This document shows positions 5,688 to 51,983 of a stretch of DNA of 64,000 bases, piece after piece. Made by a program: the position numbers and the translations under genes. The notes below the pieces were generated by a model that was not told the DNA's origin, did not search any database, and was given only the letters and a program-made list of their open reading frames with translations. Each line of letters begins with the position of its first letter. Positions within the stretch are counted from its first letter, which is position 1. Source of the DNA: Owenia fusiformis (Eukaryota > Annelida > Polychaeta > Sabellida > Oweniidae); assembly GCA_903813345.2 (NCBI GenBank), contig CAIIXF020000002.1, forward strand, positions 29,147,223-29,211,222, read 5' to 3'.

Positions 5688-8600
5688 TTAGTTTCCCCTT
5701 TGAATAGAAGATTTAGTGGGTGTTGGGACATGTAAGTTACTCGAAGGATTGGGATTTATGGGACTTGTATTTGTTACATGGGGGGTAGGCTTTGGTTCAG
5801 GAATATGCAAGAGATCTTGGCGGTCTCTTCTGTAGATTCCTCCATTATCAGCATGTACTTTGTAAGACCTGGGAGACACTTTCTCTAGGACTTTAGCCTT
5901 TACATCCCAAGTGGCTTTGTCATCATGCTTGGATTTCATTCTCACATAATCATCCTTGGTCAAGTTTGGCAGATCTCTGGATCCTTTATTGTAGTATTTC
6001 TTCTGTCTTTGTTTTAAGACTCTTCTTTGTTTGTTTATCTTTGACTTCTTGTTAATGTCAGGACTAAGTTGAGGTATTTTGCTGCGTAGTCTACGTCCCA
6101 TTAGCATTTCAGCAGGAGACATACCAGTCTCTAGGGGTGCATTTCTATATGCTAGAAGGGATAAGTAGGGATCTTCACCACTATGTGCTGCTTTCTTCAG
6201 GAGATGTTTGACTGTTCTGACTGAATTTTCTGCTTTCCCATTTCCTTGGTGTCTATAAGGACTAGATAAGGAGACCTCAAACTCGTATTCCTTGGCAAAC
6301 TCAGAAAATTTAGAGGATGCAAATTGAGAGCCAGTGTCTGCTCTAACAATATTAGGAATACCCTGTCTGGAAAATGTTGATTTCAGTTGCTGTATAATTG
6401 TGCTGGTGTTGGTGCTTTGTAGAAGAGCTACTTCTGGGTATGTGGAATAGTAATCAGTCATGATGAGGTAGTTCTTTCCAAATAGGTGGAAAACATCACA
6501 ACCAATTTTCTGCCATGGTCCGGTTGTTGTATCACCATCAATCATGCTTTGTTTCCTCTGGCTATATCTGTACATTTGGCAGGCTTCACAGCTATTTACC
6601 ATGTGTGTAATATCTTTGTAGATACCTGGCCAATACATACAGGTTCTGGCTAGTCGTTTGCACTTTTCAATGCCAATGTGACCAGCATGTAGGCGATGAA
6701 GCATATCCTTCCTCATTGAGGTTGGAATTACCATGCAGTTGCCTTTAATCAGTATGCCGTCAATCAGGGTAAGGTCATCTCTCATCTGATAGTATACTCT
6801 CTCTGCTGATGATGGCCAACCATGCAAGACATACTGGGTTACTTTCTGAAGATAAGGATCTTTAGCAGTTTCCTCAGCAATTTTCTTCATGATTTGAGCT
6901 GATGCTGGGATGGAATTCATGATCATGTTAACATGGTGGGTTATCTCAGAGTCTACTGTTTCAATCGGTGTATTACTGACTACAGACCGCGAGAGTGTAT
7001 CTGCTATCACCAGATACTTCCCTGGTGTATAAGTCATGAAATAGTCATATCTCTGGAGCTTCATCATAAGTCGTTGAATTCTTGGGGTCATTTCATTGAG
7101 ATTCTTCTTGGAGATGGGTATCAATGGTTTATGGTCAGTCTCAAGCTCAATTTGGTGAAGTCCATAAATGAGCTCATCGAATTTATGACAACCATAAGTT
7201 ATGCCTAGCAGCTCCTTCTCAATCTGAGCATACCGTTGCTCACATTTTGAGAGTGACCGAGCTGCATAAGCCACCGGCTTCCAATCATCTTGATGCTGCT
7301 GTAGGAGAACAGCACCGAGAGAATCTTTGCTGCTGTCAGTTGAAACCTTTGTTCTTTTGTCAGGGTCATAATATGCCAGTACTGGGGATGAGGTTAAAAG
7401 CTTTTGAAGGCTTACATACTCATCTTCATGATGGCTATCCCAATGCCATGGGACATCACTTTCCAGTAGTTTTCTCAGGTGTGTAGTTTGTTTTGACAGA
7501 TTTGGGATGAATTTGCCAGTGTAGTTTATCATTCCAAAGAATCGTTGGAGTTTACATTTGGAGTCTGGCTTTTCCATTTTCAGTATGGCTGCAATCCTTC
7601 CATGATCAGCCATGACACCATTGGGTGTCAAGATCTCACCAAGAAATGAGATCTTCTGAGTCTGGATAACACATTTTTTTCTATTGAGCTTCACATTGTA
7701 TCTATCAAGGCGTTGAAGTACTTTATTCAATCTATTGTCATGTTCATCTTTAGTACAGCCCCAAATGATGATGTCATCGATGTAAGCATATGTGCCCTCT
7801 ATTCCACTTAGTACTTCATCCATAGATTTTTGGAAGATTTCTGGACTGGCACACAATCCCTGGGGTAGCCTATTGTAACAGTATCTGCCCCATGGGGTGT
7901 TAAAGGTGGTCAGTAACTGAGAGTTGTTATGGAGGCGTATTTGGAAAAATGAGGATGAGGCATCTAGCTTTGACATATACTGGGCCCCATGCATAGCACT
8001 TATGATTGAATCTTTCTTAGGAAGAGGGTAGTGCTGTCTCTTAATACATTTATTGAGATCAGTGGGATCAATAGTGGTACGAACATTTTTGTCATCTTTT
8101 ACAACTGTTACCATACTATTAACCCAATCGGTAGCATCATAAACCTTGCGTATTATACCATTTGTTTCAAGTTTATCTAGATTTGTTTTAACTTTTTCAC
8201 GATAAGGCTGTGATACTACCCTGGGTGAGTGAATTACAGGAGTGGAGCCATCTTTCAATTCAATTTCATAAGTGAATGGCATCGACTCCCCTGAAGTCAC
8301 ACACTTGAACATATTTGGATATTTCTTCTCAATACTTGAGATGTCACAATTTACAACATTGACATTTGTTTCATGGTATTGACCAGAGACTTTATTTGTC
8401 ACATTTTCATCCTGGTGATTACCATTTACAACATATATTCTTTTCACCAGGTTCAATTTTACACACGTTTCATCACACAATAGTGAAATTCCATTAGGCA
8501 CTATAACAAACAAGACTTTGTGAGCTCTGTCTTTAACATGAACAGTTAGTGTACATACACCCTGTGATTTTATTTTTGACCCATTATAGTCAATCAGGTT

Positions 8601-9911
8601 GACATTTTTTGGCATCACCGAAGGCTTGTTTTTCAAGTGCTGGAAGTCATGTATATTTATCAAATTGGCCTTGGCCCCTGTATCAAGCTTGAAATCAATA
8701 AGCTGATCATTTACAAGTAACGTAGTGACCCAAGGGTCATGACCTACACTATTCACATTGATATTATCAGGCATTATTGTGGCCTGTTGATGATTTTCAA
8801 CACACGCAGGCATTATTGTGGCCTGTTGATGATTTTCCACACATTCAGGCATTATTGTGGCCTGTTGATGATTTTTCGCACTATCAGGCATTATTGTGGC
8901 CTGTTGATGATTTTCCGCACTGTCAGGCATATTTATCGTGGCCTGTTGATCACTTATAGCGTTCTTATATATGTAGCGTTCATATTCATTGTGCAGTTGC
9001 TGCAATTTACTCACTGACTTGACAGTATTGATGTAGAAGTTGAAATCTTCATCCGAGACTGATGCGTCAGAGTCTGTAGTCGTGACCTCGTTCACTTGGT
9101 TGACTGATCTACGACCTCTGCTATGACGACTGCGTTTTGAACGACTCGCACGGCTGGTGTTGGAGCTTGATCCTTTGGCCCGACAAACTGAAGATTTGTT
9201 GAAATGATTTGACCTACCACAGGCATCACATGTCTTACCATACGCAGGACACTTTCGTATGGCATGGTCCTTCGAGCAGTATTTGCAATTGATGATCATT
9301 CTGTTGGATCGGTCCTTAACATTATGAATTTCAGTTTGGGACACTGATAGTCTCTCCATAGGTTTGCTCATTATTTGAGAATATTGATGAGCTATTTCCG
9401 CAGATCTACATACTTCGATTGCTTTGGTTGCATCCAGTTGTGATTCTCTTAAAAGTCTCTCTTGCAGTCGATCATTATTTATGCCAATTACAATTTGGTC
9501 ACGGAGTATTTTGGATTCCTGGGTATCATAATTGCAAGTTGCGATTTTCGTTTGCAAGTCAGCCAAAAATTCATCGAATTTCTCATGCTCATTCTTCGTT
9601 CTGTTTCGGAAAATAAATCTTTCGTATGTTTCATTTGCTTTGGGTAGACAGTAATTAGAAAATTTGGTTACCACATGATCGTATTTCCCTTTGTCTTCTC
9701 CTTCAACAAACACAAAAGTGTCATAGATTTTTGAGGCATTCGGCCCGGCGGAAGTTATGAGCAATCCAATTTTCTGTTTGTCTGATTTGGCAGTGTCCCC
9801 CAATGCGTCGAGATACCAGGTGAAATCTCTGATAAATTGCCTCCATTGTCGTTCCAAGTCTTTGCCGAAATCTATTCTCGGAGGTGGCAATATCGAATTC
9901 TTTAAGTCCAT
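5688..9911 (-). CDS. Ty3/gypsy retrotransposon Gag-Pol polyprotein (intact 1407-codon ORF)
   Basis: A single open frame carries the gypsy order gag, protease, reverse transcriptase, RNase H, integrase. A gag-like N-terminus is followed near residues 209-243 by two zinc knuckles (CKYC..H..C and CDAC..H..C). Residues of about 320-385 are a five-fold repeat of a 13-residue unit containing NHQQATIMP. The protease motif is LDTGAKANLI. The RT catalytic box is YIDDIIIWG near residue 710. RNase H is marked by TDSSKDSLGAVL and TDHKPL. Integrase has an HHCC finger (HAGHIGIEKC..CEAC) and D, D, E positions in GCDVF, RADTGSQF and GKAENS. The start ATG gives MDLKNSILPPP. No frameshift or stop interrupts the ORF, which suggests a young insertion. 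It lies antisense in nicotinamidase intron 1. Confidence 0.95.
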   Translation of the reverse strand: MDLKNSILPPPRIDFGKDLERQWRQFIRDFTWYLDALGDTAKSDKQKIGLLITSAGPNASKIYDTFVFVEGEDKGKYDHVVTKFSNYCLPKANETYERFIFRNRTKNEHEKFDEFLADLQTKIATCNYDTQESKILRDQIVIGINNDRLQERLLRESQLDATKAIEVCRSAEIAHQYSQIMSKPMERLSVSQTEIHNVKDRSNRMIINCKYCSKDHAIRKCPAYGKTCDACGRSNHFNKSSVCRAKGSSSNTSRASRSKRSRHSRGRRSVNQVNEVTTTDSDASVSDEDFNFYINTVKSVSKLQQLHNEYERYIYKNAISDQQATINMPDSAENHQQATIMPDSAKNHQQATIMPECVENHQQATIMPACVENHQQATIMPDNINVNSVGHDPWVTTLLVNDQLIDFKLDTGAKANLINIHDFQHLKNKPSVMPKNVNLIDYNGSKIKSQGVCTLTVHVKDRAHKVLFVIVPNGISLLCDETCVKLNLVKRIYVVNGNHQDENVTNKVSGQYHETNVNVVNCDISSIEKKYPNMFKCVTSGESMPFTYEIELKDGSTPVIHSPRVVSQPYREKVKTNLDKLETNGIIRKVYDATDWVNSMVTVVKDDKNVRTTIDPTDLNKCIKRQHYPLPKKDSIISAMHGAQYMSKLDASSSFFQIRLHNNSQLLTTFNTPWGRYCYNRLPQGLCASPEIFQKSMDEVLSGIEGTYAYIDDIIIWGCTKDEHDNRLNKVLQRLDRYNVKLNRKKCVIQTQKISFLGEILTPNGVMADHGRIAAILKMEKPDSKCKLQRFFGMINYTGKFIPNLSKQTTHLRKLLESDVPWHWDSHHEDEYVSLQKLLTSSPVLAYYDPDKRTKVSTDSSKDSLGAVLLQQHQDDWKPVAYAARSLSKCEQRYAQIEKELLGITYGCHKFDELIYGLHQIELETDHKPLIPISKKNLNEMTPRIQRLMMKLQRYDYFMTYTPGKYLVIADTLSRSVVSNTPIETVDSEITHHVNMIMNSIPASAQIMKKIAEETAKDPYLQKVTQYVLHGWPSSAERVYYQMRDDLTLIDGILIKGNCMVIPTSMRKDMLHRLHAGHIGIEKCKRLARTCMYWPGIYKDITHMVNSCEACQMYRYSQRKQSMIDGDTTTGPWQKIGCDVFHLFGKNYLIMTDYYSTYPEVALLQSTNTSTIIQQLKSTFSRQGIPNIVRADTGSQFASSKFSEFAKEYEFEVSLSSPYRHQGNGKAENSVRTVKHLLKKAAHSGEDPYLSLLAYRNAPLETGMSPAEMLMGRRLRSKIPQLSPDINKKSKINKQRRVLKQRQKKYYNKGSRDLPNLTKDDYVRMKSKHDDKATWDVKAKVLEKVSPRSYKVHADNGGIYRRDRQDLLHIPEPKPTPHVTNTSPINPNPSSNLHVPTPTKSSIQRGN
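5691..5702 (-). other. Candidate polypurine tract of the gypsy element
   Basis: On the element strand the last codons read CAAAGGGGAAAC immediately before the TAA stop. A purine run at the end of pol is the normal second-strand primer of LTR elements. No matching 3' LTR could be recognised next to it. Confidence 0.4.
8768..8955 (-). repeat. 39-bp in-frame tandem repeat inside the gypsy gag/protease linker
   Basis: Five units share a core reading GGCATTATTGTGGCCTGTTG on the + strand. Each encodes 13 residues around NHQQATIMP. The last unit is diverged. The length is a multiple of three, so the polyprotein frame is kept. Confidence 0.9.
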
Positions 9912-10070
9912 GCTGAATTGTCAGCTAATTTGAGGAATTTACCCGCAGTACCATATAATAAGACTAGACTCCATGTGCAGGAAAGGAAGAACTTTATTAC
10001 TCGTTAGAATATTACAGGGGTAGTGTACGCAGACCGTACACACACGTACCGTTAATCTTAGATTGACATG
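9912..10070 (-). other. Leader, possible primer-binding site and 5' LTR end of the gypsy element
   Basis: Upstream of the Gag ATG on the - strand is a TGGTACTGCGGG stretch that could be a primer-binding site. Ahead of it lies an AATAAAG signal about 50 bp away, as expected for the R-U5 part of an LTR. A direct repeat of this stretch was not found downstream of pol near 5.1-5.7 kb, so the assignment is tentative. Confidence 0.3.
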
Positions 10071-32679: not shown

Positions 32680-32736
32680 GATGGAAAAATTGACTATGAA
32701 GAATTTAGAATAATATGGTATCACTGGCTAAAGCAG
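32680..32736 (+). CDS. Naam: Nicotinamidase exon b: second half of an EF-hand loop
   Basis: The exon is 57 bp (19 codons), with acceptor GTTTTTCAG and donor GTAAGT. Joined to the previous exon it completes a canonical 12-residue loop, DENKDGKIDYEE, with Asp, Asn, Asp, Lys, Asp and Glu at positions 1, 3, 5, 7, 9 and 12. The loop is followed by FRIIWYHWLKQ. The intron before it is about 32.4 kb, and a dispersed repeat ends only about 30 bp before the acceptor. Confidence 0.92.
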
Positions 32737-32988: not shown

Positions 32989-33228
32989 ATCCTGGATCCA
33001 GTGACAGCTCTTCTGGTTGTGGATGTACAAAATGACTTTATAACGGGTAGCCTAGCTATAAAAGACTGTCCTGCTGGCCAGGATGGGGAAGCCATCATTC
33101 CAGTAATAAATAAAATGCTTGACACAGTGAAGTTTGATTGTGTTGTATATTCCTACGATTGGCATCCACCCAATCATATCTCATTTGTGGATAATGTCAA
33201 ATCTTGGAAAGTTCACAATTCTAGTAAG
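32989..33228 (+). CDS. Naam: Nicotinamidase exon c: catalytic Asp and metal-binding motif
   Basis: The exon is 240 bp (80 codons, phase 0 at both ends), with acceptor GATTTCAG and donor GTAAGG. It starts ILDPVTALLVVDVQNDF, where the Asp of VVD aligns with the catalytic Asp of yeast Pnc1. DWHPPNHISF follows, whose Asp and first His are metal ligands in the family. The intron after it opens with a CTCATTC-rich low-complexity array starting about ten bases from the donor. Confidence 0.95.
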
Positions 33229-34145: not shown

Positions 34146-34274
34146 GTCCCTGCAGATATTGCCAAACTCTATGACACAGTGACGTTTGATGGTGATCCTA
34201 TTAAGGTTCAGAAACTCTGGCCAGCCCATTGCATACAAAACTCCTGGGGATCACAACTACATCCTGACCTAAAA
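34146..34274 (+). CDS. Naam: Nicotinamidase exon d: WPAHC metal ligand
   Basis: The exon is 129 bp (43 codons), with acceptor TTTTTCCAG and donor GTATGC. It encodes VPADIAKLYD...KLWPAHCIQNSWGSQLHPDLK. WPxHC provides the third family metal ligand, and NSWGSQLHPDL is a typical nicotinamidase segment. A small palindromic MITE (34011-34112) ends about 33 bp before this exon. Confidence 0.94.
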
Positions 34275-39404: not shown

Positions 39405-39573
39405 GTGGTTGAAAATGCTTGCCATGTTAACAAAGGGAAGAACCCTGAGATTGACAGCTACTCAGCTTTTTGGGACAACAACAAACTTTCACAGACAGAA
39501 CTTGTGTCAGAACTCACGAAACGTGGCGTCACTGACGTCTATGTGTGTGGTGTCGCCTATGATGTTTGCGTTG
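39405..39573 (+). CDS. Naam: Nicotinamidase exon e: catalytic Lys and Cys
   Basis: The exon is 169 bp (56 codons plus one base). The acceptor is TTTTAAG, an AAG rather than a CAG, and the donor is GTAAGT. It encodes VVENACHVNKGKNPEIDSYS...YVCGVAYDVCV. The Lys of NKGK and the Cys of DVCV are the remaining catalytic residues. The leftover G pairs with GT at the start of the next exon to make the Gly of DVCVGSTAL. Confidence 0.95.
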
Positions 39574-39879
39574 GTAAGTAAACACATGAAAAAACATTAC
39601 AAAAACTATGGTCCTCTTGAAAACTAAAGCATTTTTGAAAAATCATAGATTTTAAACACTATTTTGTGGAAAACTAAATTTGTCATAAGTTACAGCCATT
39701 TTTAGTGAGCAATTTGACTGATATATCCATTCATATATTATTGTTCTGTTTATATCAACTATTGACACATTATATTGTTAGTAGTTGTTCAATGTGTATT
39801 AATCTTTAAAGTAGACAGACTATAATGAGTATAGTGCTATACAAACTATAAAACATATATGTAGGGTTCAATTTAGACT
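39574..39879. other. Start of intron 5, nothing recognised
   Basis: Plain AT-rich intron sequence between the exon e donor and the inverted duplication. Confidence 0.5.
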
Positions 39880-40407
39880 TCATAGTCTGGATGTAGAGCC
39901 ACTAGAGGTGGAAATGCTTATTATATGAACTTTTTTTGCATTTTCTGTTTAAACATGATATCCATATTCAGAAACTGTCGGATGCCCAACGGGCATCCTT
40001 GAGGAATTTTTTTGGCGGCCATTTTGAATTTTCACACGTTTTATGTAATTTAGCCAGCATATTAGAACAGAAAACTAGCATACACATAAACATATCTTGC
40101 TGTTTTTTCTATAATAGAGTTTTAATATGATGTATACCAATATGTTAGGTTCCAGAAATGTTTCTTGACAAAAATAAAAAAAAATTCAAGATGGCCGCCA
40201 ACCTTACAATTTATGAAATGTCTCATTCTGTGATAATATTAAATTGATATTAGTGTTTCCTACAAAATTACCAATAAATAATACTAAAAACATCTGATTA
40301 TGATCTCTTTCTCACATATAAAATATCTGAAATGAGTAAAAAGTAACCTACATAATAATAATGATGTTCCACAAGGGTCATTTCTTGGTGCTATATATAT
40401 CTTGAAT

Positions 40408-41184
40408 TTATGAATTATCTTCTTTTACTAAGATTTCATCAAGGATTTCCCTCAATAAATCCTCATCAGTTTCTTCAAATTCCTGTTCAGTTACTGTCTT
40501 TGTATGTTGGTTAATGCATTCATTCCCCTTGCAAACACAGAACAGATAAAGATGCCTTGGAGCATGAACATCGCCCAGTTTCACATACATTGCCCTCTGA
40601 TGCACATGTGCACTTAATGAGCTGGTGAATTCCTTCAGGGGCACAGGGTGTATCCTTGGGCATTGTTGTTGGGACAGATGAGCCCATGCTGTTAATTTCC
40701 CAACCATAATCTGTTGGAAGGATAAGTGGGGGGTCAGGCATATCAGCATTTTTCCATATAGCTACCTGGAAATGAGCTCGCTTCACATGCTGGGAAAATT
40801 CTTCTGTTGTTGGTGGGAGGGATTTTAGCTTTGGTGCATTGGTAATGACTGTTTTGCTGCATTTTTCTTTGCTCATACAGCATATCTCACATCAGACATT
40901 TTGTCTGTGACTTTAGGTGTAATTCCATAACATCTAGAAACAAATTCTGTTGAAGTTTTCTCAACTTCAGTCATGTCTGCATTGACATCTCCCAAGTTAG
41001 CGAATGAGTATCTATTTAACACCTCCAGGACTGTTAGCTTGCCAATTCCATGCATGCAAGATGTCGTATCACTGCCAGAGAGACCATGCGCAGCTAACAA
41101 GTTTGGGATTTTTAATTTGTGTTCATTTACGGTTGCATTAATGTTAATTTTTGCTCGGCCAGATGATGTTCCCTCCATTATCAC
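40408..41184 (-). pseudogene. PIN/FEN-like nuclease family protein, C-terminal half (- copy)
   Basis: This is the inverted twin of 41848-42620. It begins at the arm boundary inside TSSGRAKINI and carries the LLAAHGLSGSDTTSCMHGIGK block. It reaches the same TGA as the + copy (at 40873-40875), then continues from the overlapping ATG at 40876. Its six-C run keeps the reading frame into the Cys-rich segment IKCTCASEGNVC..GRCSCSKAS, after which frames shift again. The acidic tail EETDEDLLREILDEILV lies in another frame. The N-terminal half is absent, so it cannot be functional. Confidence 0.75.
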
Positions 41185-42620
41185 TATTTGATGAAAATGG
41201 AGAAATTAATATCACAACTTCAAAATCAAAACTGAAACAAAAGTTACAGATTGAGGTGACCTCAAGAGGAAACAATTGCAATGTACGTGTCGTTGATGGG
41301 CGTGCCATCCTTTGGATCATAACATGGCCGATGGCTGGCAAAATTGAAAACTTCTGTATTGCTTTCACTAAGTACATCCTGAGACTCCTAACCGAATCAG
41401 ATGTATACCTTATCTTTGACAGATATAAAGACAATAACATAAAGAACAGCACCAGGTCATCTCAAGCTCAATCAGCCAGTAGAGTGTATAAGTTCAGCTC
41501 TGACACACCTCTCCCTGCACAGAATGTTGTTCTGAATGTGACTGAGAACAAGGTCCAGTTGATAAAGTGTGTCATCGACCATCTCACTCAAAAAGCTAGT
41601 GAAGGATCATTCTCCAACATCCTTGTCATCACAGGTCCTGATCCAACAGCTGTACAAATTCACAATATTGACCAACGTGATGACTTAAGGAACACTCAAG
41701 AAGAAGCAGATGTTGTTATTGTACACCAGGTTCTGTGTGCTGCCAGTAAAGGCCAACAGAATATCAGTGTACTCAGTGATGATACTGATGTTTTCCTTCT
41801 ACTTCTTCATCACTGTCTCAAGCACAAGTTAATGGAAAATAACATCATAATGGAGAGAACATCATCTGGCCGAGCAAACATTAACATTGATGCAACCGTA
41901 AATGAACACAAATTAAAAATCCCAAACTTGTTAGCTGCGCATGGTCTCTCTGGCAGTGATACGACATCTTGCATGCATGGAATTGGCAAGCTAACAGTCC
42001 TGAAGGTGTTAAATAGATACTCACTCGCTAACCTGGGAGATGTCAATTCAGACATGACTGAAGTTGAGAAAACTTCAACAGATTTTGTTTCTAGATGTTA
42101 TGGAATTTTACCTAAAGTCACAGACAAAATGTCTGATGTGAGATATGCTGTATGAGCAAAGAAAATGCTGCAAAACACATTACAAATGCACCAAAGCTAA
42201 AATCCCTCCAACAAACAACAGAAGCATTTTCCCAGCATGTGAAGCGAGCTTATTTCCAAGTAGCTTCATGGAAAAATGCTGATATGCCTGACCCCCACTT
42301 ATCCTTCCAACAGATTATGGTTGGGAAATTAACAGCACGGGCTCACCTGTCCCAACAACAATGCCCAAGGATACACCCTGTGCCCCTGAAGGAATTCACC
42401 AGCTCATTAAGTGCACATGTGCATCAGAGGGCAATGTATGTGAAACTGGGCGATGTTCATGCTCCAAGGCATCTTTATCATGTATATTGTTCTGTGTTTG
42501 CAAGGGGAATGAATGCGCAATTACTAACATACAAAGACAGTAACTGAACAGGAATTGGAAGAAACTGATGAGGATTTATTGAGGGAAATCCTTGATGAAA
42601 TCTTAGTAAAATAAGATAAT
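41184..42620 (+). pseudogene. PIN/FEN-like nuclease family protein, truncated and frameshifted (+ copy)
   Basis: The main open part runs to a TGA at 42153-42155. Acidic signature blocks are VVDGRAILW, DVYLIFDRYKDNNIK, EEADVVIVHQ, SDDTDVFLLLL and SGSDTTSCMHGIGKLTVLKVL. The spacing of EEAD, DDTD and G-DTTS followed by GIGK resembles FEN/XPG-type PIN nucleases with a helix-hairpin element; that link is my inference. Homologous proteins are common in invertebrate genomes and look mobile. The ATGA at 42152 moves the reading frame by one. Near 42293 the C run is one base shorter than in the other copy, breaking the frame again before a Cys-rich tail (CTCASEGNVC..CSCSKASLSC). The first open bases (41151-41183) belong to the other arm. 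Confidence 0.75.
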
Positions 42621-43475
42621 TCATAAATTCAAGATATATATAGCACCAAGAAATGACCCTTGTGGAACATCATTAGTATTATGTAGGTTACTTGTTACTC
42701 ATTTCAGATATTTTATATGTGAGAAAGAGATCATAATCAGATGTATTTAGTATTATTTATTGATAATTTTGTAGGAAACACTAATATCAATTTGATATTA
42801 TCACAGAATGAGACATTTCATAAATTGTAAGGTTGGCGGCCATCTTGAATTTTTTTTATTTTTGTCAAGAAACATTTCTGGAACCTAACATATTGGTATA
42901 CATCATATTAAAACTCTATTATAGAAAAAACAGCAAGATTTGTTTATGTGTATGCTAGTTTTCTGTTCTAATATGCTGGCTAAAATACATAAAACATGTG
43001 AAAATTCAAAATGGCCGCCAAAAAAATTCCTCAAGGATGCCTGTTGGGCATCCGACAGTTTCTGAATATGGATATCATGTTTAAACAGAAAATGCAAAAA
43101 AAGTTCATATAATAAGCATTTCCACCTTCACTTAAAATATGGCACTTCACATCCAGACTATCACCTTCTCTGCCTACTGTAATTGAATATTTATGGAGCA
43201 GGCAGGTTATCAGTGAATTATAACGCATCTAATCCATCTTCATCCATCAACATGCTCAATTGCTCATGATGTACAATAATAATTTTGGGGCCATTACATG
43301 TACTTCCAAATATGTATATAAGGTATATAACATGTATATAAGGTATATAATTTACTTTATATATGTCTCTGTTATATTCTTGTTCGTCATCTGAATCTGT
43401 AAAGTATTTATAAAACACGTCTCATGCCATGATTCTTCCTAAGATTGTACTACTTAATGATATAAATGTGTTCAT

Positions 43476-45854
43476 TTATTTTGTGTTTTTGTTATTATAT
43501 TGTTGCAATAGTTTCCTGGTATGTTCCAACTCTTTCTGTTTCCCAAGGGCCTCATAGCAGCTGGTAATGTTCAAGAGAATGGATAAATACAACAAGTGAG
43601 TTTCATCCCCTTGCTTACACAGAGACTTGGCCTTTTCCAGGTAGCCCAGTGCAGATTCATACTCTTTGTTGTGTACAAGGGCATCAGTGTAGTAGTAATA
43701 TATCCAGATTGTGTCTTGGGTTGTATCTAACCATGGCTTACATTGAGATCGAAGTTCAATGAGGCGCTCACAGCACTCCTTGAGTTGTGTGTAGTCCTGC
43801 ATTGTCTGTAGAATCTCAGCCTTCATCACCATGTGCTTCAGGAGCTCACTTGGTGGAGACACCTTTAAAGCTTCATCTACAGATGTTAGTGCTGCTGGGT
43901 AGTCTTTCAGATTCATGTGGCAGTCAGCTATTTTGTTTAAATAATCTGCTTCATCACTGCTGTCTAGATCTTGGTTGGTCTGGAGTTCATCCTGCAGAAC
44001 CTTCAGCAGAGAATGGTAATCACCTCTAACAGTGTGAAAATGTATGACATCCATGAACACACTATTTCTAGAAACAGGTTCTATTTTGTGGTGCCATGAT
44101 TCTTCCCAAGATTGTAACAGTACATGTAGTTCATCAATGACCTCATCATCCTGGAAGCATGTGTATAACTTAGCTAGTAGGAGGCAATACTTACACTCAC
44201 AGTACATGGGGCATGATTGCATCAACTGTTTAACATCACTAGGATTTATGCTGGTTGCATTTTTCAGACATGCAGGGACTGACATGGAACAACTCATGTA
44301 TCTGAGGAAGTAATGCTGTAGTAAGTTGATGAATGGAATTGGTATGACCTCCCTTGAGACAGATGTGATAGGTGTCAGAAGGTCATCTGGATTTGTATTA
44401 GTAGTTGTGAACTGTGTAAATGTCTCAATGAGATCATGTTGTTGATTTTTGAAGCAGTATGTGAACAGCCTTACTGCAATTACAAAATTGATCATCAGTA
44501 ACAGGTGTGAACAACTTTCTTGACCAATGAATTTTTGTAGCTCATCAATGATATCCCATGGAGATGCTTTATCAATATTGAACAAGTCTTTCATATTATT
44601 TATCAGGATTGATGGAAATCTATAATAGTTCTTTTTAGCATTGCGTGTACTGGTATTTGAACCAAGCCTGAATTTATATCTATCACAATCTTTCTTCATT
44701 TGTTCAATGCAATTTCTAATTGTTAAGTCTTCTTTTTCCTCTTTTCTGACTCTTGCTAGCTGGTTCCTGAATTCTTGAAACAAGCCTTCATCACCCATTA
44801 TGTTGGTTGCCGTGGAGACAATAGTTGCGAGATGGTAGCCATTTTTCTCATCAGATTCATTTGTGCTAAGCTCAGCCATGTATGTAGGTGTACCAATTAG
44901 TTTGACAGGTTCTTTTTTCTCTGTACCTTCATGACCAGGTGGTATTTTAGCTGCCCAGGGCATACTACCATCAAGCTTGAACCCACTGGGTGTAGTATCA
45001 TCATAGAAATCATTCGATATTGTTTCCTCGTAAAAGTTATTTAGGCTTCTTATTCCCACAGCAGGCAGAGGGGTTTCCCCCAAGTTGAGCACCTTTAGTT
45101 GAAAGTGGAAGTGGAGATTGAGGAAATATTCATCATGCCTATCATTCTCTGTTAAAAACAGATACTCTAGATCAGAGTAGGGGGTGCTTTCACCTCTTGC
45201 AAGAGACCCCAGTCCAACCATGGTGAATTTACAGGGTGGGGGTCCACATACAGCTATGCTTTGCTCCATTAAAGCAGCACTGAACTCTTTGATAAAGCTT
45301 GTGTTGTCCGCACAAATTGATTTAACCTTTTGGTTAAGCCTTCCCTCAAAGTCTGGATTTGGTCCATTTTCTGCCTTTGGCCACTCCATCATTAACTTTA
45401 CTAGGTCTTTCATATTTGTTTTAAGACTGAATCTGTGGGAATTCAATGCCTCATTGGGATTGGCCTGTAGCTCTGTATTGATGCTCAGCTGCGAAACATC
45501 CTGCTCAATACCCGAGGCATCCTCGATGATTGTGTCCTTGCCAAGAACATTCTCCATGTACATTTTCTCAACTTCAGCACATAGTATTGGAATCTGTTGC
45601 TGGTGTTGCTCAACATTTGGACCCCTTTCTTTTGTTAAATTCAGGCATGCCTTAGCCCCATTATACAATGCCACAGCATTAACATAATCTTGTCGTTGCT
45701 TGGATTTATTCAAACATCTTTGCCTGTAAAGATCCCCCAGCTCAATCATCTTGACTCCCTCTTTTTCATGATTGCGAAGTTCTTGTTTTGTCAAAGCACA
45801 AAGTTCTTTCCCAACATTGTCTTCCTCCTCTAATACTATCGAAGATTCCGCCAT
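43476..45854 (-). CDS. Intronless nucleotidyltransferase-like (GlnD-N/DUF294 type) and TPR protein, 792 aa
   Basis: A full-length uninterrupted ORF starts at AAGATGGCGG (good initiation context). Residues about 25-75 form a helical TPR-like segment. Residues 216-230 read GSLARGESTPYSDLE, the GS..RGE..PYSDxE signature of polymerase-beta-type nucleotidyltransferases, as in the N-terminal domain of GlnD/DUF294 proteins; Asp228 and Glu230 would bind metal. Residues about 640-790 contain TPR-like helices (ADCHMNLKDYPAALTSVDEA; EYESALGYLEKAKSLC). Similar proteins occur in several invertebrate lineages without a known substrate. An AATAAA overlaps the stop codon. It is nested antisense in nicotinamidase intron 5 and has no introns, so it may have arisen by retroposition or transfer. 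The real reaction is unknown. Confidence 0.82.
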   Translation of the reverse strand: MAESSIVLEEEDNVGKELCALTKQELRNHEKEGVKMIELGDLYRQRCLNKSKQRQDYVNAVALYNGAKACLNLTKERGPNVEQHQQQIPILCAEVEKMYMENVLGKDTIIEDASGIEQDVSQLSINTELQANPNEALNSHRFSLKTNMKDLVKLMMEWPKAENGPNPDFEGRLNQKVKSICADNTSFIKEFSAALMEQSIAVCGPPPCKFTMVGLGSLARGESTPYSDLEYLFLTENDRHDEYFLNLHFHFQLKVLNLGETPLPAVGIRSLNNFYEETISNDFYDDTTPSGFKLDGSMPWAAKIPPGHEGTEKKEPVKLIGTPTYMAELSTNESDEKNGYHLATIVSTATNIMGDEGLFQEFRNQLARVRKEEKEDLTIRNCIEQMKKDCDRYKFRLGSNTSTRNAKKNYYRFPSILINNMKDLFNIDKASPWDIIDELQKFIGQESCSHLLLMINFVIAVRLFTYCFKNQQHDLIETFTQFTTTNTNPDDLLTPITSVSREVIPIPFINLLQHYFLRYMSCSMSVPACLKNATSINPSDVKQLMQSCPMYCECKYCLLLAKLYTCFQDDEVIDELHVLLQSWEESWHHKIEPVSRNSVFMDVIHFHTVRGDYHSLLKVLQDELQTNQDLDSSDEADYLNKIADCHMNLKDYPAALTSVDEALKVSPPSELLKHMVMKAEILQTMQDYTQLKECCERLIELRSQCKPWLDTTQDTIWIYYYYTDALVHNKEYESALGYLEKAKSLCKQGDETHLLYLSILLNITSCYEALGKQKELEHTRKLLQQYNNKNTK

Positions 45855-46460
45855 CTTGATATCAATTTACCACTTCCTGGTCAAATAGAATAACCCACTG
45901 AACAATATCGTACTTGAGACAAAATGAAATGAAACATTGAAATAAAGATGTCTTGTTAGCAAGTTGAACTTTAATTCTGCAATTTAATTTATTCATGCTT
46001 TAATATGTATAAGAAAGAATGTCTTACCTAATGTCTTACATTTCTTGATTTTTGTCAACAGGGTTCAATCGCGTCTTGCAATTGCGTCGTTTAGATTTTT
46101 ACTTTTTGTTATTTATTGAGGTCATCTGATCAGAGGGGACTAATCATTTGATTTTTAAATTAATTGTTCTCTCTACTTTATGTTACGATTATTTGTTGTT
46201 TTTATTGGAACTTAATTTTGTTTTGATGAAAATTTAAAACCTTGTTTTATTTAATACTTGTTATTCTTGATATGCAACACACTATAATATTTTCTCAATG
46301 GTACATCCATAGATTTGAGACTTATCGATAAATGTTCAGGTACACAAATACTTAAAACAAGTACTTGAAATGTTGTATTTTAGGTCCAAAGTATTATAAA
46401 ACTTAAAATAAAGATTATGTTTGAGAGACATCTTTAATTCAATTTATTTTGTATTTGTTA
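45855..46460 (-). promoter_or_regulatory. 5' flank of the nucleotidyltransferase/TPR gene
   Basis: This is AT-rich sequence upstream of the ATG at 45854. I see no convincing TATA box at a fixed distance and no coding exon. The promoter of the antisense gene should lie here. It is bounded upstream by the start of the hairpin-ended repeat at 46461. Confidence 0.3.
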
Positions 46461-48297: not shown

Positions 48298-48649
48298 TTT
48301 ATTTAGTTGTCATTTAGGGGATGAGTTGTTACGTTGTTCTTAATGCATTGTTCATGAAATTGACAAGGGGTCTTGAATGATTTTTAAAGATGTGTGTCCA
48401 TTTTCAAAAATTCAAAAATTAATAAGGAACATATCAGAAAATAGCTCTGCTCCCATAAGCGATATGTGAGAATGGGGTAAAAGCAGGGATTTTATCTGAA
48501 ATATTATTGTCAGGTCAAAATCAAAAGTATATCAGACTAGTAGATGGTAGATATTGTATATGTCTCTGGTTTAATGCCTTAAGAATAGCAAACCACCTGA
48601 GGTATTAAAACAGGGAATAACTGGTAGAGCATGTGAAGCTGATAAATAT

Positions 48650-51109
48650 GAAATGTTCATTTTCAGGTTCTACTGCACACAGTTAGGACAAGAACAGCTT
48701 TATTTACATGAAATGTACATTTTAAGTTTTTCTACACATGGACTGCTAATTAAAATGAAATGTTCATTTCAGGTTCTACTGCACTGTACTCAATTGAACA
48801 TAGATTCAGAACATTACTCATCGATGATGCCTCTAAGGGTGTTCGAATATTAAAACAGCTAATTTACATGAAATGTCCATTTCAGGTTCTACTGCGCTGC
48901 ATTCAATTGAACATGGATTTAGAACATTACTCATCGATGATGCCTCTAAGGGTGTTAGAATATAAACAGCTAATTTACATGAAATGTCCATTTCAGGTTC
49001 TACTGCACTGTACTCAATTGAACATAGATTCAGAACATTACTCATCGATGATGCCTCTAAGGGTGTTCGAATATTAAAACAGCTAATTTACATGAAATGT
49101 CCATTTCAGGTTCTACTGCGCTGCATTCAATTGAACATGGATTTAGAACATTACTCATCGATGATGCCTCTAAGGGTGTTAGAATATAAACAGCTAATTT
49201 AAATGAAATGTCCATTTTAGGTTCTACTGCACTGCACTCAATTGAACATGGATTTAGAACATTACTCATCGATGATGCCTCTAAGGGTGTTAGAATATAA
49301 ACAGCTAATTTACATGAAATGTCTATTTTAGGTTCTACTGCAATGTACTCAATTGAACATAGATTCAGAACATTACTCATCGATGATGCATCCAAGTACA
49401 TTAGAATATAAACAGCTAATTTACATGAAATGTTCATTTCAGGTTCTACTGCACTGTACTCAATTGAACATAGATTCAGAACATTACTCATCGATGATGC
49501 ATCCAAGTACATTAGAATATAAACAGCTAATTTACATGAAATGTCCATTTCAGGTTCTACTGCACTGTACTCAATTGAACATAGATTCAGAACATTACTC
49601 ATCGATGATGCATCCAAGTACATTAGAATATAAACAGCTAATTTACATGAAATGTTCATTTCAGGTTCTACTGCACTGCATTCAATTGAACATAGATTCA
49701 GAACATTACTCATTGATGATGCCTCCAAGGGTGTGAGAATATAAACAGCTAATTTACATGAAATGTCCATTTCAGGTTCTACTGCACTGTACTCAATTGA
49801 ACATAGATTCAGAACATTACTCATTGATGATGCCTCCAAGGGTGTGAGAATATAAACAGCTAATTTACATGAAATGTCCATTTCAGGTTCTACTGCACTG
49901 TACTCAATTGAACATAGATTCAGAACATTACTCATTGATGATGCCTCCAAGGGTGTGAGAATATAAACAGCTAATTTACATGAAATGTCCATTTCAGGTT
50001 CTACTGCACTGCATTCAATTGAACATGGATTTAGAACATTACTCATTGATGATGCCTCCAAGGGTGTGAGAATATAAACAGCTAATTTACATGAAATGTC
50101 CATTTCAGGTTCTACTGCACTGCATTCAATTGAACATGGATTTAGAACATTACTCATTGATGATGCCTCCAAGGGTGTGAGAATATAAACAGCTAATTTA
50201 CATGAAATGTCCATTTCAGGTTCTACTGCACTGCATTCAATTGAACATGGATTTAGAACATTACTCATCGATGATGCATCCAAGTACATTAGAATATAAA
50301 CAGCTAATTTACATGAAATGTCCATTTCAGGTTCTACTGCACTGTACTCAATTGAACATAGATTCAGAACATTACTCATTGATGATGCCTCCAAGGGTGT
50401 TAGAATATAAACAGCTAATTTACATGAAATGTCCATTTCAGGTTCTACTGCACTGCATTCAATTGAACATGGATTTAGAACATTACTCATCGATGATGCA
50501 TCCAAGTACATTAGAATATAAACAGCTAATTTACATGAAATGTCCATTTCAGGTTCTACTGCACTGTACTCAATTGAACATAGATTCAGAACATTGCTCA
50601 TCGATGATGCATCCAAGTACATTAGAATATAAACAGCTAATTTACATGAAATGTCCATTTCAGGTTCTACTGCGCTGCATTCAATTGAACATGGATTTAG
50701 AACATTACTCATCGATGATGCCTCCAAGGGTGTTCGAATATTAAAACAGCTAATTTACATGAAATGTCCATTTCAGGTTCTACTGCGCTGCATTCAATTG
50801 AACATGGATTTAGAACATTACTCATCGATGATGCCTCTAAGGGTGTTAGAATATAAACAGCTAATTTAAATGAAATGTCCATTTTAGGTTCTACTGCACT
50901 GCACTCAATTGAACATGGATTTAGAACATTACTCATCGATGATGCCTCCAAGGGTGTTAGAATATAAACAGCTAATTTACATGAAATGTCCATTTCAGGT
51001 TCTACTGCACTGCATTCAATTGAACATTTATTCAGAACATTACTCATCGATGATGCCTCCAAGGGTGTTAGAATATAAATATCTAATTTATATGTAATGT
51101 ATATTTCAG
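48650..51109 (+). repeat. Tandem array of 21 partial nicotinamidase exons, each with its own 3' splice site
   Basis: Each unit is 111 bp (three are 113 bp): 40 bp of intron end finishing TTTCAG or TTTTAG, then 71 bp of exon f encoding STALHSIEHGF and LLIDDASKGV. Exon-like starts fall at 48773, 48886, 48997, 49110, 49221, 49332, 49443, 49554, 49665, 49776, 49887, 49998, 50109, 50220, 50331, 50442, 50553, 50664, 50777, 50888 and 50999. The true exon at 51110 is copy 22. Two decayed units precede them at about 48667 and 48727. In the enzyme frame most copies read on to R-I-stop, so a copy used as an exon would truncate the protein. Variants alternate: H/Y, G/R (EHGF or EHRF), and KGV or KYI. The 113-bp form lacks the immediate stop. 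111 is divisible by three, so long spurious ORFs run through on both strands. Confidence 0.95.
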
Positions 51110-51252
51110 GTTCAACTGCACTGCACTCAATTGAACATGGATTTAGAACATTACTCATCGATGATGCCTCCAAGGGTGTTTCAGAGGAAGGTATTAGAGA
51201 CATGCGGAATGAGCTACAACAGATGGGTGCAATCATAGTCAACTCAGATGAG
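51110..51252 (+). CDS. Naam: Nicotinamidase exon f: genuine last copy of the duplicated exon
   Basis: The exon is 143 bp (two bases plus 47 codons), with acceptor ATATTTCAG and donor GTAAGT. It encodes GSTALHSIEHGF, LLIDDASKGV and EEGIRDMRNELQQMGAIIVNSDE, which follow DVCV in nicotinamidases. Only this copy continues past KGV into the conserved SEEGIRDMRNEL segment and reaches a donor at the expected place. The first 71 bp and the acceptor are the sequence multiplied in the upstream array. The donor is the first unit of a 21-bp downstream array. Confidence 0.94.
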
Positions 51253-51545
51253 GTAAGTATCTCACCCATGTGGGTATGTATTCCACCCATGTGGTTATGT
51301 ATTTCACCCGGTTGGGTATGTATTTCACCCAGGTGGTATGTATTTCACCCATATTGGTATGTATTTCACCCATATGTGTATGTATGTCAGCCATGTGGGT
51401 ATGTATTTCACCCATGTGTGTATGTATGTCAGCCATGTGGGTATGTATGTCAGCCATGTGGGTATGTATTTCACCCATGTCGGTATGTATTTCACCCATG
51501 TGGGTAAGTATTTCACCCATGTGGGTATGTATTTCACCCATTTGG
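51253..51545 (+). repeat. 21-bp tandem array seeded by the exon f 5' splice site
   Basis: There are fourteen units close to GTATGTATTTCACCCATGTGG. The first unit is the genuine donor GTAAGT at 51253. Units start at 51253, 51274, 51295, 51316, 51336, 51357 and then every 21 bp to 51525. All but the third begin GTATGT or GTAAGT; unit 13 (51504) repeats GTAAGT exactly. The fourth unit is 20 bp. The enzyme frame stays open across the array. Confidence 0.92.
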
Positions 51546-51857
51546 AAATACAGTTTCGGTTCAGTGTTCACTGATTATTTCATATTATTTCTCTTATAAA
51601 ACTGCAATGAAGCATTTATATTCCGGTATGCCCATTAAAGTGCCATTTTCATCATTTGCATGCCATCTTCGGCTTCATGGGTTGGAACAAATGTTGTATT
51701 CTATAAGAACATTAAATGAGAAAATACCAAAGCATAAAGCAAGAATCTATGGTAATCAGGTTATAATCAATGGTACTGCAAAACATTCCTAATAGAAAAA
51801 TATTGAAGTTGTATGTTTTCAGTTGCATAATCATTTTATTTATGATTTTGAATGCAG

Positions 51858-51983
51858 GTCCAAGAGTTAGTGAGCGCAAAGGACCGGAGACCAGAACTAG
51901 GGGTCCAAGCTGCGTTGAATGTTGCCCTAGCACGAAAACTTGTCAAACGAAACTCTCAGTCTCGAATATCACCTCGAAAATAA
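51858..51983 (+). CDS. Naam: Nicotinamidase exon g: C-terminus and stop
   Basis: The acceptor AATGCAG precedes 41 codons and TAA. The sequence VQELVSAKDRRPELGVQAA leads into a basic tail ending SPRK. The exon is in phase 0 with exon f. The helix with ALNVALARKLV fits the C-terminal helix of the family, and the basic tail after it is less conserved. Confidence 0.85.
   Translation, partial: VQELVSAKDRRPELGVQAALNVALARKLVKRNSQSRISPRK

Follow-up and report, generated by a model that had tools for sequence, protein, structure and literature searches.

A 21-copy array of acceptor-bearing partial exons in a nicotinamidase gene of Owenia fusiformis, probably a mirage minisatellite

Results

Nicotinamidase gene

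The window, that is the whole stretch of 64,000 nucleotides of Owenia fusiformis DNA that was analysed, carries on its plus strand a gene that, judged by sequence homology, is an animal EF-hand nicotinamidase. The exon list starts, with earlier exons outside its scope, at 32680–32736 (DGKIDYEEF...; acceptor TTTTTCAG and donor GTAAGT read from the sequence), an exon which is EF-hand-like as judged by its motif. It is followed on the same strand by 32989–33228 (DVQNDF, SYDWHPPNH; splice sites read from the sequence), which matches the nicotinamidase PDB 9u8m_A in phmmer (E 1.5e-25), and, by sequence reading, by 34146–34274 (LWPAHCIQNSWG), 39405–39573 (with the YDVCVG motif) and the complete authentic exon of 143 nt at 51110–51252 (GSTALHSIEHGF...NSDE), which has its GTAAGT donor at 51253. 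A probable terminal exon (VQELVSAKDRRPELG...SPRK-stop), a candidate by motif whose phase fits exon 51110–51252, is situated at 51858–51983; it was chosen by a motif of insect nicotinamidase C-termini. Joined together, the four catalytic exons encode a peptide that matches 9u8m_A with an E-value of 1.4e-76 over query residues 2–218, such that homology to the nicotinamidase (isochorismatase-like) family extends across the catalytic domain, and the gene call of the earlier note is confirmed. The same holds for the upstream donor it had placed at 39574: exon 39405–39573 is directly followed by the GT of a GTAAGT donor at this position. Since this exon ends with YDVCV-G and exon 51110 continues with GSTALHSIEHGF, the junction lies just after the catalytic cysteine of the family. 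The intron between them is 11.5 kb long and contains the array described below.

Acceptor-side array

On the plus strand, 21 partial copies of the intron-exon border (48733–51069), each with 40 bp of the intron 3' end and 71 bp of the exon, precede the intron end with the authentic acceptor (51070–51109; CTAAT at -27, TTTCAG). TRF reports a single array at 48745–51180 (period 111, 21.9 copies, 94% matches, score 4006), and a scan for YAG/GTTC[AT]ACTGC, the slash marking the exon start, yields 23 acceptors, namely the authentic one (51110), the 21 of the partial copies and one of a decayed unit (48667). Both methods thus agree with the 111-bp unit and the 21 copies before the complete exon that the earlier note had described. 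A second decayed acceptor (AAG at 48724–48726) is found between the decayed unit at 48667 and the first copy, so that, by sequence reading, two decayed units form the left edge of the array at 48627–48732, their acceptors lying before 48667 and 48727.

The exon parts of the copies start at 48773, 48886, 48997, 49110, 49221, 49332, 49443, 49554, 49665 and 49776 in the first half of the array, and at 49887, 49998, 50109, 50220, 50331, 50442, 50553, 50664, 50777, 50888 and 50999 in the second. From 48773 to 51110, 18 of the 21 steps measure 111 bp and three measure 113 bp (after 48773, 48997 and 50664), the latter spacing reflecting a linker 2 bp longer in three copies. All 21 copies retain the 71 bp of exon, and homology ends at exon position 71 of 143. 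Equally, the joint GGTGTT/AGAATA, or a point or 2-bp variant of it, is common to all 21, so that they derive from one truncated duplicate and not from repeated truncations of full exons. The tandem unit crosses the exon-intron boundary and adjoins the authentic boundary of exon 51110–51252, as in a mirage minisatellite.

The searched genome yielded no other locus with the array, a missing match not being proof of absence. The protein of the exon gave 22 matches, all of them at the nicotinamidase locus, so that no paralogous donor is visible for the variants found in the copies (Y for H, R for G, KYI for KGV). Within 48400–51700, no match to an Rfam family passed the gathering score of that family. 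An antisense open frame of 565 aa running across the array was rejected as a gene, being a by-product of the 37-codon period.

Splice signals and coding outcome

The copies resemble the authentic site and all keep its reading phase: the branch-like CTAAT is found at -27 in 21 of 21, as at the authentic acceptor, pyrimidines amount to 8–9 of 17 positions (authentic acceptor: 9), and the acceptor reads TTTCAG/GTT in 18 copies and TTTTAG in the remaining three. Concerning donors, a hexamer scan finds the first GTAAGT at 51253, such that the copies possess neither a GTAAGT donor nor the 3' half of the exon; they do contain weaker donor-like hexamers, i.e., the moderate GTGAGA in five copies and GTACAT or GTGTTA in others.

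Homologous tandem copies within one intron, five of them with GTGAGA, might suggest mutually exclusive or cassette exons. However, the copies lack half of the exon, and a copy exon ended by GTGAGA would, counted from the positions, measure 68 nt; the authentic exon would then be out of frame, and the intron in between would be 43 nt long. Mutually exclusive exons were rejected, as no complete in-frame copy with acceptor and donor was found (homology stops at 71 of 143, and there is no GTAAGT before 51253), and the explanation as a whole is regarded as extremely improbable.

If translation is followed from the first codon common to all copies, 18 of 21 run for 26 codons into a stop, their short tail ending in R-I, whereas the frame shifts in the three 113-bp copies, which reach a stop after 101, 68 and 68 codons. 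This bears out the earlier observation that most copies stop soon after KGV. Every one of the 21 acceptors leads to a stop 174–2287 nt before the end of the authentic exon, and a copy would therefore not ordinarily give a productive transcript. As the terminal exon lies further downstream, splicing into a copy would be expected to lead to nonsense-mediated decay (NMD). No AATAAA was found in the array; in three copies, ATTAAA closely follows the exon part.

Turnover and constraint among the copies

Copies were compared for n=20, without the first one, since its intron part falls within the decayed edge. Pairwise identity ranges from 0.838 to 1.000 (mean 0.928, n=190 pairs), and four exact internal repeats of 213–236 nt occur at shifts of 111, 111, 224 and 1667 bp. 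The exact repeats show block duplication or conversion and, together with the identities among copies, recent turnover. The intron part of the authentic unit is 0.65–0.85 identical to the copies, whereas the copies differ there from each other by 0.046 on average. The internal repeats and the decayed left units correspond to concerted evolution inside the array with the edges excluded, as in mirages. The range of pairwise identity among the copies speaks against a false expansion of the array during assembly. Tandem arrays are error-prone, and in the amphioxus draft the haplotype-1 mirage of the globin gene BflGb6 appears aberrantly assembled, according to the accessible part of PMC3087553; here, however, a contig of 35.75 Mb suggests a long-read assembly. 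An artefact is considered very unlikely, even if the assembly may not give the exact number of copies.

The acceptor AG is retained in 21 of 21 copies, as the earlier note had stated, and thus the splice signal is preserved as in mirages. With 24 of 111 columns variable among the 20 copies, any two given columns would both be invariant with a probability of 0.61; conservation of the acceptor is what recent duplication alone predicts, without selection. The share of variable columns is not significantly different between the intron part (4 of 33, linker left out) and the exon part (16 of 71; Fisher P 0.29). These figures bear on the possibility that the copies act as poison acceptors, competing for the upstream donor and diverting transcripts to a premature stop and NMD, whereby the level of nicotinamidase would be tuned. 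The authentic-like acceptor features and the stop before the end of the exon, both applying to all 21 copies, would suit such a role, as would the position of the copies, which are transcribed 0.1–2.3 kb ahead of the authentic acceptor. Against it stand the conservation expected without selection, the missing GTAAGT donors and the amphioxus mirages, which, in the accessible parts of PMC3087553 and PMC3902484, are reported or inferred not to disturb splicing. We regard this regulation as unlikely, and no direct support was found for decoys, a splicing regulator or truncated enzymes.

In the exon part, 8 of 11 single-base events are synonymous, compared to about three expected (P 0.002–0.007 across six mutation models); with two clustered multi-base changes counted as nonsynonymous, the ratio is 8 of 13 (P 0.004–0.022), and 9 of the 16 variable exon columns are third positions (P 0.007–0.031). 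This bias runs counter to a neutral reading of the array; it is drawn from small numbers, in a test chosen after the data had been seen and among copies that are not independent. Its likeliest source would be exchange with the constrained authentic exon, and the copies themselves may be constrained as well. Concerning amino acid changes, the glycine of IEHGF is replaced by R in 10 of 21 copies and by L in one, and KGV by KYI in 6 of 21; both altered glycines match in both aligned PDB nicotinamidase sequences. Judged by these changes at common glycines, the copies do not look like a maintained part of the enzyme.

They likewise tell against the idea that the copies serve as alternative terminal exons of truncated isoforms, the enzyme then ending with ...DDASKGVRI. 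Such isoforms would agree with 18 of 21 copies keeping the frame up to the short tail that they have in common, with ATTAAA behind three of them and with the excess of synonymous variation; yet the product would be devoid of the last part of the domain, nearly half of the copies carry R at the IEHGF glycine, and the array lacks AATAAA. This reading, too, is highly improbable.

Donor-side array

A second tandem array, found by TRF and sequence reading, opens at the donor of the same exon (51252–51545, plus strand) and consists of 14 units of 21 bp, mostly starting with GGTATGT. GTATGT or GTAAGT occurs at 13 places within it, i.e., the authentic donor and 12 further donor-like sites, of which the first two are in frame and the other ten shifted; the frame of the authentic exon stays open through the array up to a stop ending at 51507. 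Aligned to the rest of the 21-bp array, the authentic donor scores 37 compared to a mean of 11 for shuffles, none of 500 of which scored as high. Taken together with the acceptor-side array, both borders of one exon are multiplied.

Genomic setting and search for further mirages

Tandem arrays are common here. TRF covers 17.3% of the window, or 14.9% if arrays shorter than 200 bp are disregarded. For ten 10-kb pieces, taken at hand-picked positions and not by random draw, the figure is 9.8%, with more than half of that in one piece and none in two; for a set of 42 loci surrounding conserved exons it is 5.7%. Among these 42 exon loci (12 of 92 myosin-head and 30 of 144 kinase matches), no clear further mirage was found; as the scan used the ends of profile matches instead of true exon ends, it is a weak test, and mirages are not shown to be frequent in this genome. 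With the adh_short profile, all 19 scored matches were long and intact.

Two loci were flagged by the scan. In L009, an array of 12 units of 33 bp (around 1715–2147) starts 24 nt past the myosin exon match; its resemblance to the donor junction is weak (P 0.02 for a case chosen after looking). In L032, the flag was due to one imperfect pair, spaced 119 bp and close to the start of the match. A close kinase pair (L055, G000:C10:2256401-2257700) was rejected as a mirage, being two complete tandem exons with HRD and DFG separated by a 47-nt intron; they are probably mutually exclusive exons of a GSK3-like kinase. At G000:C9:37986009-37994334, 12 matches on one strand, all covering one and the same part of the myosin head (profile around 18–84), follow each other in steps of 0.3–1.9 kb and probably constitute a large set of alternative complete exons.

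Further open frames are situated within the window. An intronless frame of 796 aa lies on the minus strand within the nicotinamidase intron (43476–45866), and a frame of 1410 aa on the minus strand (5688–9920) resembles, by eye, a Gypsy-type gag-pol polyprotein. At 39906–43127, related open frames are inverted about a point around 41.5 kb (e.g., 39906–40130 on the plus and 42903–43127 on the minus strand), the pair being an inverted duplicate of a repeated element.

Discussion

The organization found here is most similar to that of the mirage minisatellites of amphioxus, which, as described in the accessible part of PMC3087553, duplicate the 3' end of an intron and the 5' part of the following exon. 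The closest case there is BflGb6: in both arrays, many units keep the splice signal, identity among units is high (81–100% in BflGb6), edge units are excluded from homogenisation, and the authentic boundary is part of the transcript. Despite this similarity, the BflGb6 mirage belongs to a different gene and comprises, depending on the haplotype, 6 or 3 units of 150–160 bp, whereas the nicotinamidase array comprises 21 units of 111–113 bp. For BflGb6, regular splicing is suggested by RT-PCR.

Further amphioxus mirages are described, in the portions of PMC3087553 and PMC3902484 available, for BflGb9, Adh3, TnC and PGBD5, the latter paper adding PGBD5 and citing TnC. These share with the nicotinamidase exon the duplication of 5' or 3' exon boundaries. 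Those of Adh3 and TnC are said not to generate aberrant mRNA (PMC3087553, PMC3902484), and that of PGBD5, with repeats at 5' and 3' splice sites, is inferred not to interfere (PMC3902484). In what appears to be a difference, the arrays of the nicotinamidase gene flank the same exon on its acceptor and donor sides. Adh3 being a metabolic gene, the claim of the earlier note that no comparable array is known in such a gene does not stand, at least on the accessible parts of these two papers, and its interpretation as a whole is partly supported.

Minisatellite expansion at exon boundaries with cryptic splice sites is also described for human genes of segmental duplications, where some of the repeats create introns; according to the available part of PMC2812944, however, these variable internal tandem repeats of primate paralogs average four units of 30 bp, compared to 21 units of 111 bp here. 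Intron gain by tandem duplication is treated in PMC2891723, and in PMC7960049 'mirage' is the name of a transposon, as far as the accessible text of both goes. A named mirage outside amphioxus was not found in a partial literature search covering titles and abstract openings, and a search for nicotinamidase and splicing yielded no nicotinamidase paper among the matches listed.

Given that boundary-duplicating tandem repeats are already described, the surprise of the nicotinamidase array is much reduced; what is unusual in relation to the described mirages is the copy number of 21 and the two-sidedness. The acceptor-side array is probably a mirage minisatellite of little selective effect, in which exon definition selects the true exon. 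A segment of 111 bp, running from the intron 3' end into the first half of the exon, would have been duplicated in tandem; unequal exchange, slippage or conversion, processes commonly inferred for minisatellites, would then have amplified the duplicate and homogenised it in part. Under exon definition, an acceptor would be paired with a donor around 143 nt further on, such that the last acceptor is chosen; the cell presumably ignores the copies because a strong donor at exon length follows only after this last acceptor. Occasional use of a copy would give a premature-stop transcript, probably removed by NMD, and hence the array is probably close to neutral.

The two arrays, with 21 additional acceptors and 12 additional donor-like sites around an exon of 143 nt, might instead constitute a length-dependent heritable tuner of nicotinamidase and NAD salvage, in which a fraction of transcripts would be diverted to a premature stop and the synonymous bias would reflect selection on the copies. 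We consider this quite improbable.

The locus offers a natural experiment on the choice that the spliceosome makes between numerous acceptors of nearly the same sequence: what mainly sets the copies apart from the authentic site is that no strong donor follows them at exon distance, and the donor side has 12 more donor-like sites of its own. For the idea that new introns can be seeded by boundary minisatellites, it provides a further case, probably one from beyond the amphioxus lineage.
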